The notes below the pieces were generated by a model. That model was not told where the DNA came from and made no database searches. It worked only from the letters and a program-made list of their open reading frames with translations. The position numbers and the translations under genes are program-made. From Muribaculaceae bacterium Isolate-037 (Harlan) (lineage in GTDB: Bacteria; Bacteroidota; Bacteroidia; Bacteroidales; Muribaculaceae): a DNA stretch of 64,000 bases. The stretch lies in the NCBI GenBank assembly GCA_003762615.1, contig RIAZ01000003.1, positions 62,001 through 126,000 on the forward strand, given 5' to 3'. Positions 5,017 through 44,799 of the stretch are shown one piece after another (within the stretch, counting starts at the first letter, position 1; every line of letters begins with the position of its first letter).

Positions 5017-6525
5017 TTAATAACCGGGATTCTGTGTCATCAGAGGATTGGCATCCATCTCTGTCTGAGGTATCGGAAAAAGAAGACGCTCCTTCGTTGC
5101 ATTTGTCTTGCCGATTGAGTGCAGGAACTTGACTGCATAGTCGCCATTGTCAAGGCGGATCATGTCAAACCAACGATGACCCTCAAAGGCAAGTTCCATA
5201 CGGCGTTCGTGGATTATCGCCTCACGCATCGCATCCTTGGAAAGAGATGAGGAGAGTGCCGGAAGACCTGCCCTCTTGCGCACCTCATTGACGGGAGCAG
5301 CAGCACTCGACGTCATGCCAAGTTCATTAAGAGCCTCTGCCTGCATGAGAAGCACTCCGGCATAGCGGTAGACCACGAAGTTTGCCGGCGATGTGTTGGT
5401 CTCCGGAGAGATTGTCTTCGACACAAGGAATTTTCTCACGTTGTAGCCTGTGTTGGAATAAGAGGGGCGGTAAGGCATACCCTCCCAATCGGGACATCCC
5501 TCATAGAACACTGTGATAGGCTTGCGGAGGTCGCCATCCTCATACTGGTCGATAAACTCCTGGGTAGGCTGATTCCAACCCCAGCCGCCGGCTACCATGT
5601 TGGAACCACGCGGTCCCATAAATGTTGAGAGCCATGATGCGTAGGGTGTGTTTCCCCAGAAATCAGACTCCGTACTGCCGGAATACTGCACCTCGAATAT
5701 CGACTCCGTACCATTACGCACCGGGCAGTTGAAATTGTCGGCATACGGGCATGAAGCGAGATTATAGCCAAGCGAAGTAATCTCATTACAGATATCCACC
5801 ACATCCTGATAATACTCCGGATTCGAGGGTGCCAATGTCAGATAAATGTCGGCAAGCATATATAGGGCGGCATCCTTGCACGCACGTCCAAGCTCATGTT
5901 CGGAATAGTCAGCCTTTGCCGGGAGAAGCTCTGCGGCACGTGAGCAATCCGCGATTATCTGAGTATAAGTGTCGGCAAGCGAAGCGCGTGCTATCGCACT
6001 CGACGTGTCGGGGTCATACGGTTCAAGACGGAGGGGCACACCGCCGAAAAGACGCGCAAGGATATAGTAGTAGTGCGCACGAAGGAACAGTGCCTCACCC
6101 TCTGAGCGCGTCGCAATCATCTCGCTCACCTCATTCTCACTCTTCAGAGCCTTCAGCAGATTGTTACACTGAGCGATACCGATCCACGGCGAACGCCACA
6201 TATATAGAGCCATAGCGTTATCGCTCAACGTATTAAAATTAGCACACTGGATGGTCTCTATACCGTCGTCGCCACCACCGGCACCAACATTGGAGTTGCC
6301 CGCCACAATGTCAAGACCCCATATACGCTGATTGTAAAGGTTTGACGAACGCAAAGGCACATAGCAGGCATTCGCAAGAGCCTCAGCCACCTCATCGGTG
6401 ACATTCGTCTGTGGATCCACCCTATCGAATGGAGTCTTATCAAGAAAATCCTCACATGATGTGGCGGTCATACCGAAAAGAAGCACTGCCACACTGTATA
6501 TAAATTTTTTCATAGATTTTTTCAT
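5017..6525 (-). CDS. SusD/RagB-family surface glycan-binding lipoprotein
   Basis: 502 residues. Signal peptide with lipobox TATSC (Cys24) then the typical EDFLDKTP start of SusD/RagB proteins, a TPR-rich helical N-terminal half and the conserved C-terminal segment with IIHERRMELAFEGHRWFDM and LLFPIPQTEMDANPLM. It forms the lid of the SusC pore and captures glycan outside the outer membrane. Two in-frame starts lie four codons apart (MKKSMKKF) because the sequence ATGAAAAAAT is nearly duplicated; the second is equally likely. It follows susC by 36 bases. Confidence 0.93.
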   Translation of the reverse strand: MKKSMKKFIYSVAVLLFGMTATSCEDFLDKTPFDRVDPQTNVTDEVAEALANACYVPLRSSNLYNQRIWGLDIVAGNSNVGAGGGDDGIETIQCANFNTLSDNAMALYMWRSPWIGIAQCNNLLKALKSENEVSEMIATRSEGEALFLRAHYYYILARLFGGVPLRLEPYDPDTSSAIARASLADTYTQIIADCSRAAELLPAKADYSEHELGRACKDAALYMLADIYLTLAPSNPEYYQDVVDICNEITSLGYNLASCPYADNFNCPVRNGTESIFEVQYSGSTESDFWGNTPYASWLSTFMGPRGSNMVAGGWGWNQPTQEFIDQYEDGDLRKPITVFYEGCPDWEGMPYRPSYSNTGYNVRKFLVSKTISPETNTSPANFVVYRYAGVLLMQAEALNELGMTSSAAAPVNEVRKRAGLPALSSSLSKDAMREAIIHERRMELAFEGHRWFDMIRLDNGDYAVKFLHSIGKTNATKERLLFPIPQTEMDANPLMTQNPGY

Positions 6526-41347: not shown

Positions 41348-41379
41348 GTTTACGAAATATTCTTAAAAGTTCGGGGAAG

Positions 41380-41454
41380 TGGGCGATTACGGATTCGAAC
41401 CGCAGACCCTCTGCTTGTAAGGCAGACGCTCTAAACCAGCTGAGCTAATCGCCC
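41380..41454 (-). tRNA. tRNA-Val (UAC), second of pair
   Basis: Folds on the minus strand: acceptor GGGCGAT/ATCGCCC, D arm GCTCAGCTGGTTTAGAGC, anticodon stem TCTGC/GCAGA with loop CTTACAA (anticodon UAC), T loop TTCGAAT. CCA is not encoded. Confidence 0.95.
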
Positions 41455-41487
41455 CAATTTCGCAATTGCTTGCGAAGTTGCTTTCGG

Positions 41488-41562
41488 TGGGCGATTACGG
41501 ATTCGAACCGCAGACCCTCTGCTTGTAAGGCAGACGCTCTAAACCAGCTGAGCTAATCGCCC
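41488..41562 (-). tRNA. tRNA-Val (UAC), first of pair
   Basis: Same sequence as the copy at 41380-41454, 33 bases away in a two-gene unit. Confidence 0.95.
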
Positions 41563-41710: not shown

Positions 41711-44296
41711 ATGGTCAAAGATATTAAAATTGAAGATTTCGATTATAATCTCCCCGATGAAAGGATTCCGCGTCATCCGTTGCAGCAACGCGACGCATGC
41801 AAACTGATCCTTTCGCGTCCTGACGGCGGGGTGGCTCACCGCCATTTTAACGAACTACCCTCTCTTCTGCCCCCTGCGACTCTCCTTGTATGCAATGATA
41901 CACGCGTGATCAATGCACGCATATCATTCTATAAGACCACCGGGTCAAGAATCGAAATATTCCTTCTCGAACCTATTGACCCCGCCGATTATGTACTCAC
42001 GTTCCAATCTCGCGGAAAATGTATATGGAATTGCCTTGTCGGTAATCTGAAGAGATGGAAGGAGGGAGCTCTCTCCATTGAGATAAGAGCGGAAGGGACC
42101 ACCACCCCTGTCACGCTCTCCGCCCGCCGACTAAATCCCACTGCCGGGAATGCCCACGCCATTGAATTTACGTGGGACAATCCTGACGTGACATTCGCTT
42201 CCGTAGTGGATGCTGCCGGATTTATCCCTATCCCACCCTATCTGAAACGCGAATCGGAAGAGTGTGACAACGACGACTACCAGACCGTGTATGCCGATGC
42301 CAAAGGCTCGGTGGCTGCCCCCACTGCCGGATTGCATTTCACGCCCGAAGTGTTTGACGACCTTTATGCCCATAATATCGAGGTGGGAAAACTTACTCTC
42401 CACGTCGGAGCCGGCACTTTCCAACCGGTGAAATCGGAGAATATAGGCGACCATCCCATGCATACCGAAAGTTTCTCAGTGAACCGCGACCTTATCCGGC
42501 GACTCATAGCCCAAAAGCAAGCTGGTGAACCTTTGGCGGCAGTAGGCACCACCTCCGTCCGCACGCTTGAATCCCTCCCCTATCTCGGCGCGGCCATCGC
42601 TCGTGGCGATGAAAGTATGCACGTAGACCAATGGGAGGCATATTCAGCGGAATCATCTTCAATCGACACAATAGAAGCCCTCACAGCAATTGACAGATGG
42701 CTTGAAAAGAATAATAAGACAATACTCACTGCCTCCACAGCCATAATGATAGCTCCGGGGTTCAGATGGCGAATGGTAGACGTAATGGTTACAAACTTCC
42801 ATCAGCCGCAATCCACCCTCCTGCTTCTCGTATCCTCATTCCTTGGAGAGAGAAATGGGCTTCCTGTATGGCGCGACCTTTACGATGAGGCTCTACGCAA
42901 CGATTACCGCTTCCTATCCTACGGCGATGCCTGTCTGCTCTTTGCCCCGACAGTGGCTAAAAGGGTAAGTATTGATAATACAGTTGATAATACGGCAGAG
43001 GATACAACCGACAATAACGCTGATAATGCGTCAGACGCGACCGACACAATCATCCTTCCCGTATCAAAGAGTATAGGGGCACGCTATCTTGCAGCCTCAT
43101 ACTTTGCCGGCACCCTACCCACTTGCCCGGCACTAACTGACTGCGATGACCTGCGCGTGATACAACGTGCCTTGCTCGCTCTCTTTGACATGAAAGAAAC
43201 GGGAAAGATCAGCGGCGAATCAATCGACATACATGCCTCCGGCACGGCATTCCGGTTTGTGACCGCCATAGCCGCCTCCACACCCGGCACGGACTGTATC
43301 ATAACAGGCACTCCCCGACTATGCTCTCGTCCGATGGCTCCAATGCTTGACGTGCTCAGAAAAGCCGGTGCACAGATTGAATCACTCGGCGAGAACGGCA
43401 CAGGACCCTACCGCATACATGGATCCGCTCTGAAGGGTGGAGAATTTGAAATAAAAGGTGATGTCAGCTCACAGTTCATCTCCGCGCTCATGCTCTGCGC
43501 ACCTACATGGGAGAATGGTATGTCGCTACGATTCACAACTCCGCTCGTTTCCCGTCCGTATGCCGAGATGACAGCACAGGTTATGCGTCAGTTCGGCATA
43601 GAGGTCACTCTTCATGATGAGGGTGTTGAGGTAAAAGCCGGGAGGTACGTCGCACCCGCCAGGTTCAAGGTTGAGGCAGACTGGAGTGCCGCAGGGTTCT
43701 TCTACGAGGCAGCAGCCTTATCCAATGCAAAAATCCGCATTGCCGCGCTTGTCTCCCCTTCCGAATCATTGCAGGGGGATGCAGCAACTGCCGGATTCTT
43801 TGAGATGGCAGGGGTAGAGTCAACATTTGATGATAACGGAGCCACGCTTTCAGAGGGTGAGGAGAAGCCAGACCGTATTGAGGTGGACCTCACAGATAAT
43901 CCGGACCTCGCTCCGGCATTTGCCGTGGCGTGTGCACTTTCCGACTGCGAATTCCGGTTTGACGGTGTGCGTAATCTCCGTCTGAAGGAATGTGACCGTC
44001 TTGCAGCCATTCAAACGGAACTGCGCAAGTTGGGCTACGTCATAACCGTCACTGACGATTCCATAGAGTGGAATGGCAAACGCTGCGACACCACGCCGGA
44101 AGCAATCGCCACATACGATGACCACCGCATAGCAATGGCTTTCGCAATGGCAGCCCTACGACTTGGGGAGATAAAGATAGCTGACCCCGATGTGGTGAAC
44201 AAATCATTCGAGGATTTCTGGAATCAGCTACCTAAGATCGGTCTCCACTGCCAACGCAACGGCAACGTAATAATACTTAAAAGAGTGCAAAAATGA
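41711..44296 (+). CDS. QueA-AroA fusion protein
   Basis: One unbroken 861-residue frame. Residues 1 to about 416 are QueA, S-adenosylmethionine:tRNA ribosyltransferase-isomerase (queuosine synthesis): VCNDTRVINAR, VAAPTAGLHF (201-210), HVGAGTFQPV (231-240), VTNFHQPQSTLLLLVSSF (360-377), FLSYGDACLL. Residues about 417-446 are an Asp/Asn/Thr-rich linker. Residues 447-861 are AroA, EPSP synthase (shikimate pathway step 6): VSKSIGAR (451-458), ASGTAFR (509-515), SRPMAP (539-544), DVSSQF (584-589), SRPYAEMT, NPDLAPAF (730-737), RLKECDR (757-763), DDHRIAMA (803-810). Catalytic residues of both appear intact. The two jobs are unrelated. No internal start or frame break is obvious. TGA overlaps the next ATG. 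Confidence 0.92.
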   Translation: MVKDIKIEDFDYNLPDERIPRHPLQQRDACKLILSRPDGGVAHRHFNELPSLLPPATLLVCNDTRVINARISFYKTTGSRIEIFLLEPIDPADYVLTFQSRGKCIWNCLVGNLKRWKEGALSIEIRAEGTTTPVTLSARRLNPTAGNAHAIEFTWDNPDVTFASVVDAAGFIPIPPYLKRESEECDNDDYQTVYADAKGSVAAPTAGLHFTPEVFDDLYAHNIEVGKLTLHVGAGTFQPVKSENIGDHPMHTESFSVNRDLIRRLIAQKQAGEPLAAVGTTSVRTLESLPYLGAAIARGDESMHVDQWEAYSAESSSIDTIEALTAIDRWLEKNNKTILTASTAIMIAPGFRWRMVDVMVTNFHQPQSTLLLLVSSFLGERNGLPVWRDLYDEALRNDYRFLSYGDACLLFAPTVAKRVSIDNTVDNTAEDTTDNNADNASDATDTIILPVSKSIGARYLAASYFAGTLPTCPALTDCDDLRVIQRALLALFDMKETGKISGESIDIHASGTAFRFVTAIAASTPGTDCIITGTPRLCSRPMAPMLDVLRKAGAQIESLGENGTGPYRIHGSALKGGEFEIKGDVSSQFISALMLCAPTWENGMSLRFTTPLVSRPYAEMTAQVMRQFGIEVTLHDEGVEVKAGRYVAPARFKVEADWSAAGFFYEAAALSNAKIRIAALVSPSESLQGDAATAGFFEMAGVESTFDDNGATLSEGEEKPDRIEVDLTDNPDLAPAFAVACALSDCEFRFDGVRNLRLKECDRLAAIQTELRKLGYVITVTDDSIEWNGKRCDTTPEAIATYDDHRIAMAFAMAALRLGEIKIADPDVVNKSFEDFWNQLPKIGLHCQRNGNVIILKRVQK

Positions 44297-44799
44297 TTGG
44301 AGCATTGATAATATTGGCGGCAATGGTAGTCATCGGTATCATTCTTTACGTGACAGACCGACTATATTACCGCAAGAAACATCCGGAAGTGGTTGGAACA
44401 GCCTCTCCGGAAACCGACACGACAACGAAAAAGGAGCCTCAGCCACAGCCTGCCGAGGAAGAAGTGAAGGCAGACACCAAGCCGACATCCGTTCCTACCG
44501 CTAATCCGATGGATGAACCGGAAGTGTGCTGCGGTGCGCATACCGTATGTGAGAAGACGAATCTCTCCCCCCTCACGGGTGAGATTGTATATTACGATGA
44601 CGAGGAACTTGACCGTTATCGCGGAAGGGCTGCCGATGAGTACACACAGGAGGAGATAGAGGAATTTCGCGATGTGCTCATGACGTTGTTGCCACAAGAC
44701 GTGGCGGGATGGTCACGGAGCATACAGGTAAGGGAGATCAACCTTCCGACTGAGATACGCGAGGAGCTTATCATGATAGTCTCCGACCTGCGACGCTAA
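44293..44799 (+). CDS. Conserved membrane-anchored protein with CCGxHxVCEK motif
   Basis: 168 residues: one N-terminal membrane helix (about 2-22), a Pro/Glu/Thr-rich tether (about 35-75), the cysteine motif VCCGAHTVCEK (about 77-87), then an acidic helical domain (YYDDEELDRYRGRAADEYTQEEIEEFRDVL). I know similar Bacteroidetes proteins, sometimes labelled phospholipase without evidence; I cannot assign a function. The three cysteines and a histidine could bind metal. Its start overlaps the stop of queA-aroA by four bases (ATGA), so it is translationally coupled to it. Confidence 0.8.
   Translation: MIGALIILAAMVVIGIILYVTDRLYYRKKHPEVVGTASPETDTTTKKEPQPQPAEEEVKADTKPTSVPTANPMDEPEVCCGAHTVCEKTNLSPLTGEIVYYDDEELDRYRGRAADEYTQEEIEEFRDVLMTLLPQDVAGWSRSIQVREINLPTEIREELIMIVSDLRR

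Follow-up and report, generated by a model that had tools for sequence, protein, structure and literature searches.

Results

The DNA analysed here, referred to as the window, is a 64,000-nucleotide stretch from Muribaculaceae bacterium Isolate-037 (Harlan) and carries, at positions 41711..44296 on the + strand, an open reading frame of 861 amino acids that begins with ATG and has no internal stop. Its N-terminal part (residues 8-410; 41732..42940, + strand) matches the Pfam family Queuosine_synth (PF02547; 326 bits against a cut-off of 25), and its C-terminal part (residues 446-840; 43046..44230, + strand) matches EPSP_synthase (PF00275; 257.8 bits against 22.8). Between these domains lies the linker of about 30 residues, rich in Asp, Asn and Thr, that an earlier note on this DNA had described (residues 413-445; 42947..43045, + strand), and it is predicted to be disordered. 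We call the first domain QueA2, a label coined in this analysis for a long paralogue of QueA, and the second AroA. The fusion protein passes two QueA equivalog models of NCBIfam (NF001140, 339 against 324; TIGR00113, 295.7 against 267.45), falls below the cut-off of a third (NF002398, 201.8 against 588), and narrowly passes the AroA equivalog TIGR01356 (288.5 for the whole chain and 290.6 for the domain, against 287.25). All of the AroA motifs named in the earlier note were located in the protein (KSIGAR at 453-458, SSQF at 586-589, LRLKECDR at 756-763 and DDHRIAMA at 803-810) and aligned with V. cholerae 3nvs. These are active-site motifs of EPSP synthases, and many of them are invariant across 25 aligned AroAs, a chosen subset of the host genus from which the other four fusions described below were left out. 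At the level of sequence, it was confirmed that two full-length enzymes are joined in one uninterrupted frame.

Just upstream of the fusion and on the opposite strand are two tRNA-Val(TAC) genes (41379..41562, - strand). For about 14 of the + strand matches in the genus, the contig starts 155-317 bases before the match, and the contig breaks near the locus are perhaps due to repeated tRNA-Val genes breaking assemblies. Downstream, the start of a gene for a 168-residue protein (44293..44799, + strand) overlaps the stop of the fusion (ATGA); the protein has a hydrophobic N-terminus by eye and no match in Pfam. In 42 of 77 AroA loci of the genus (42/69 when only AroA loci with enough flank are counted), the gene immediately after aroA is a homologue of it; in 5 a homologue lies elsewhere in the stretch, and in 22 none was found, the remaining 8 stretches being too short. 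As it also follows aroA where queA2 is not adjacent (L088, L155, L157), this arrangement suggests that aroA and the 168-residue gene form an older unit than queA2-aroA.

In a predicted structure of the whole chain (pLDDT 85.1, pTM 0.55, 28 rows), the arrangement of the two halves is not fixed by the model. Its pLDDT is below 50 at residues 417-443 of the linker, as it is for almost all of the 30 residues that open a separate C-terminal model, and a further weak stretch lies inside QueA2 at residues 191-205. The C-terminal (AroA) model (pLDDT 90.8, 25 rows) and the whole-chain model both match solved EPSP synthases; the latter also matches the QueA structures 1vky, 1yy3 and 1wdi, though loosely (rmsd 9.4-10.3). 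Since GTG 415 is the sole in-frame ATG, GTG or TTG between codon 380 and the AroA domain at 446, a separate start of a complete AroA is possible only at that codon. The linker looks loosely repetitive, with a self-identity of 0.49 at a 12-nt shift, a value reached by 55/2000 codon shuffles and for a period picked post hoc. As Tandem Repeats Finder also reported no tandem repeats in it, no tandem origin of the linker is claimed.

The genome of the window (G000) encodes a canonical QueA on a different contig (G000:C26; a 354-aa open frame, 417.7 bits). Its second PF00275 match (G000:C25) passes the MurA cut-off and is MurA; no second AroA was found in the assembly (97.9% complete, 102 contigs), which also contains TGT, chorismate synthase and a QueG match above cut-off. 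Separate copies of both genes had been raised in the earlier note as something to look for, and of these an intact queA is present but a second aroA was not found. The earlier description of an unbroken frame from a complete QueA to a complete AroA stands as to the missing stop and the two full-length domains, but the frame does not join the genome's canonical QueA to AroA: the fused domain is a paralogue.

In 52/61 genomes, QueA2 co-occurs with the roughly 350-aa canonical QueA; two of the other nine gave no match and seven gave one type only, some of these assemblies being incomplete. In the phylum sample, the long form was found in 39 of 198 genomes, G000 included (at or below 1e-78 over most of the length), and the rest gave weaker matches, the listed ones ending near residue 299, or in one genome none, so its distribution in the phylum appears patchy. 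In a FastTree phylogeny of 97 rows, which carries a long-branch warning, QueA2 forms one clade of longer proteins apart from canonical QueA; we filed the window's QueA2 as a QueA-family paralogue and not an orthologue because it falls outside the canonical Bacteroidales QueA clade. It resembles QueA (tRNA preQ1(34) S-adenosylmethionine ribosyltransferase-isomerase; PF02547 / TIGR00113) in passing two equivalog cut-offs and in the match of its sequence to 1vky, 1yy3 and 1wdi. Unlike QueA, it is longer, belongs to a separate clade, shares its genome with a canonical QueA and has residues of its own. Of the 83 columns that are at least 95% conserved in 34 canonical QueAs, the window keeps 61, and several differ throughout QueA2 (52 are unchanged in at least 90% of 84 QueA2s), canonical G70 being F in 94% of these sequences, P100 being N in 100% and M314 being L in 100%.

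The search of the host genus covered 111 genomes, 107 of them with a match; 89 loci from 89 genomes were examined and 22 genomes gave no locus. Two of the 89 are AroA loci without QueA2 (G017, G082), leaving 87 QueA2 loci, in which the two genes are adjacent and unfused in 66, fused in 5, and apart or without a clear placement in 16. The 66 adjacent pairs are operon neighbours on the same strand, 53 in different frames, 11 in frame with one stop between the genes and 2 in frame with more. Among the 16 others, 10 have no AroA despite at least 3 kb of downstream sequence, 3 have it on the opposite strand, 1 has it on the same strand 2.7 kb away, and 2 have less than 3 kb downstream. In the nearest relatives by QueA2 (G022, G104, G115), the pair is adjacent and unfused; G033 is a single in-frame stop short of a fusion, and in G101, which is sister to the fused G112, QueA2 ends at a stop. 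Two long frames, G123 (frame 915) and G007 (frame 995), were rejected as fusions, a stop lying between the genes. QueA2 and AroA were both not found in G070, G085, G087 and other MAGs of the genus, despite the presence of chorismate synthase. We do not read this joint absence as a sign of coupling, as assembly gaps together with physical linkage explain it equally well; the single PF00275 match in those genomes was assumed to be MurA.

The five fusions (G000, G112, G011, G119, G090) have junctions that all differ in length and sequence. On a quick QueA2 tree (88 rows; two short rows left out) they need five changes, all five forced by starred branches, and they are not clustered (500/500 shuffles as low). 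The AroA tree (77 rows) requires four changes, three of them forced (40/500 shuffles as low); on it, G011, G119 and the G112 clade share one fork without a clear branching order, which leaves room for fewer origins, and long-branch flags fall on G011 (3.16), G090 (1.84) and four unfused rows. From these quick trees, we estimate at least three separate fusions and most likely five. The G011 frame contains 27 ambiguous codons among its 892, none of them in the junction shown, and three of the four other fused genomes have no ambiguous bases across the pair. The earlier note had named intact separate genes, with the fused frame absent from relatives, as one finding that would speak against a true fusion: the genome does have a separate, intact queA and the fusion is missing from most relatives, but no second aroA was found and four other members of the genus carry fusions with other junctions.

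Both halves look constrained, AroA less so, as judged from sequence comparison. Against the nearest relative (L075), pS is 0.71 and pN 0.09 for QueA2, and pS 0.77 and pN 0.22 for AroA, values that do not isolate constraint after the fusion, as dS is saturated and spans both branches. In every one of the 74 other loci of the genus with both genes, AroA is less identical to the window than QueA2 is. Among the other fused genomes, AroA falls below the equivalog cut-off of 287.25 in G112 (237.0), G119 (235.4) and G090 (189) and is a very weak match in G011, so its function is less sure in these four. When L075 was compared with L044, the AroAs of G022 and G115 differed at a pS of 0.27 against 0.64 for the QueA2s, which suggests aroA recombination.

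Outside the genus, the picture differs. No frame longer than 601 aa was found in other genera of the family among the matches listed (149 genomes, 140 of them from other genera). In the five other-genus family genomes that have both genes, again among the matches listed, QueA2 and AroA lie on different contigs (G579, G611, G621, G652) or about 250 kb apart (G605). The earlier note had proposed the domain pair as one to be sought across Bacteroidales; beyond the window it was found in the four other fusions of the genus (G112, G011, G119, G090), but AroA was present in 0/40 of the QueA2 stretches fetched from the order, among the matches listed (247 genomes searched). Three of these 40 have less than 3 kb on one side, one of them (G249) with almost nothing downstream. 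As far as seen in these sequences, the queA2-aroA pairing appears confined to the host genus.

Seven long frames from the order (G178, 844 aa; G219, 728; G286, 1012; G290, 839; G327, 628; G345, 553; G283, 528) were considered as further fusions and rejected, as their stretches contain no AroA. The upstream extensions of G178 and G219 are antisense to an Smr-domain gene, the extra upstream parts of G345 and G283 look like a chance upstream frame, and G286 and G290 contain stops that leave frames of 404 and 409 aa. In the G327 frame (L107, 4270-6154), QueA2 continues into a MobA-like NTP transferase domain; it was not counted as a QueA2-NTP-transferase fusion because its junction codon has two ambiguous bases and may hide a stop.

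Discussion

The AroA half agrees with known AroA / EPSP synthases (PF00275 / TIGR01356) in its full length, kept motifs and predicted fold, but differs in having no free N-terminus and being linked to QueA2. Other chains that combine AroA with a second enzyme are known, namely AROM, TyrA-AroA (PRK14806) and AroA-Cmk (PRK11860), and the window shares with them the joining of AroA to another enzyme in one chain. However, its partner belongs to a tRNA-modification family (PF02547) and is not a shikimate enzyme, TyrA or Cmk; AROM chains, PRK14806 and PRK11860 match the AroA half only, with both models far below their cut-offs. The earlier note knew of no AroA fusion with a tRNA-modifying enzyme, and our search of largely open-access literature returned no report of a QueA-AroA pair and nothing that links queuosine to the shikimate pathway; PMC4921024 uses none of the terms QueA, AroA, phosphoshikimate and queuosine. 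The fusion adds an unexpected partner to the known AroA fusions.

We consider it highly probable that recurrent in-frame fusion of adjacent genes has produced a tethered bifunctional enzyme whose halves are probably not coupled in function. In such a course of events, queA2 would have come to sit directly upstream of aroA in the genus, in the same orientation and typically separated from it by some tens of bases, and in the lineage of the window the queA2 stop and the aroA start would then have been lost in frame, leaving a flexible linker of about 30 residues. Both enzymes would now be encoded, and presumably translated, as one chain and in equal amounts. Judged at the level of its family, the most likely reaction of the N-terminal half is a SAM-dependent transfer of the QueA type, with 7-deazaguanine-modified tRNA as substrate. 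The C-terminal half would use phosphoenolpyruvate and shikimate-3-phosphate to form EPSP, and the two domains are probably independent and tethered solely by the linker. Because relatives in the genus usually keep the genes as separate neighbours, the fusion seems to have arisen more than once by chance from the gene order, and not as a new pathway: it is an unusual domain pair with an ordinary mechanism. The alternative that the earlier note had put as merely a co-expression fusion fits these observations best. The loci form a natural series for the origin of a bacterial gene fusion (genes apart, adjacent, one stop short, and fused more than once) and call for caution, as not every fusion reflects a functional link.

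An unlikely alternative is that the fusion was selected, with Q-type tRNA modification (Tyr, Asp, Asn and His codons) and aromatic synthesis gaining from shared control or contact. The pair is adjacent or fused in 71/87 of the QueA2 loci of the genus, and that so odd a fusion arose more than once may be a sign of selection. Repeat fusion is, however, likely even without selection, since the genes are close neighbours and 11/66 adjacent pairs are one in-frame stop away. The pairing is also seen in one genus only, 14 of its loci do not have AroA next to QueA2 (in 10 none in the stretch, in 3 on the opposite strand, in 1 at 2.7 kb), G017 and G082 have AroA without QueA2, and the genome of the window has a separate canonical QueA and TGT. 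We know of no metabolite shared between QueA-type modification and aromatic synthesis. A further point in favour is that a table for an E. coli tgt mutant in PMC9508795 lists aroA, aroB, aroC, aroE and aroF (values of 0.34-1.17) beside his and trp genes. The suggestion in the earlier note that the fusion ties tRNA modification to aromatic amino acid synthesis was not supported: as far as seen, the genes are neighbours in this genus only, separate in the five other-genus family genomes and unpaired in all 40 order stretches among the matches listed.

Accidental fusion of two working enzymes also has to be weighed against the idea that one half is no longer active and that the fused part is a scaffold or is decaying, which is distinctly unlikely. 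In favour of it, AroA barely passes its equivalog cut-off and is less identical to the window than QueA2 in all 74 loci; but it has kept its motifs, many of them invariant in the 25 chosen AroAs, and is the sole AroA found in a genome with chorismate synthase, and QueA2 keeps 61 of the 83 near-invariant QueA columns. Very unlikely, in our view, is a more specific proposal in which QueA2 would be a distinct Bacteroidota QueA-type enzyme acting on a tRNA or deazaguanine substrate of its own, repeatedly tied to AroA by selection in this genus so as to couple modification physically to aromatic supply. That an assembly or sequencing error, through a missed stop or an indel, has merged two adjacent genes is most improbable: the genes are separate in most relatives and the draft assembly has 102 contigs, but the linker is continuous, in frame and without an ATG for AroA, and the frame is also open across the pair in four further members of the genus, each with its own junction and three of them without ambiguous bases.

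Recurrent fusion of neighbouring genes remains our preferred reading, and the QueA2 paralogue may be a more useful lead than the fusion itself, being a Bacteroidota group to which current models give no other name than QueA, though its genomes usually also carry a canonical QueA. QueF (searched with one query sequence) comes directly after QueA2 in two genomes from a single family (L104, 5968-6859; L109, 3709-4615), which hints at the queuosine pathway. Of the 40 order stretches (L104-L143), 27 contain a homologue of a DUF2027/Smr-domain gene, identified with Pfam on one copy; in 26 of them it is divergent and adjoins QueA2. Finally, the QueA2 of G101 contains an insert with a long Thr/Pro low-complexity run (L177, about 5550-5770).
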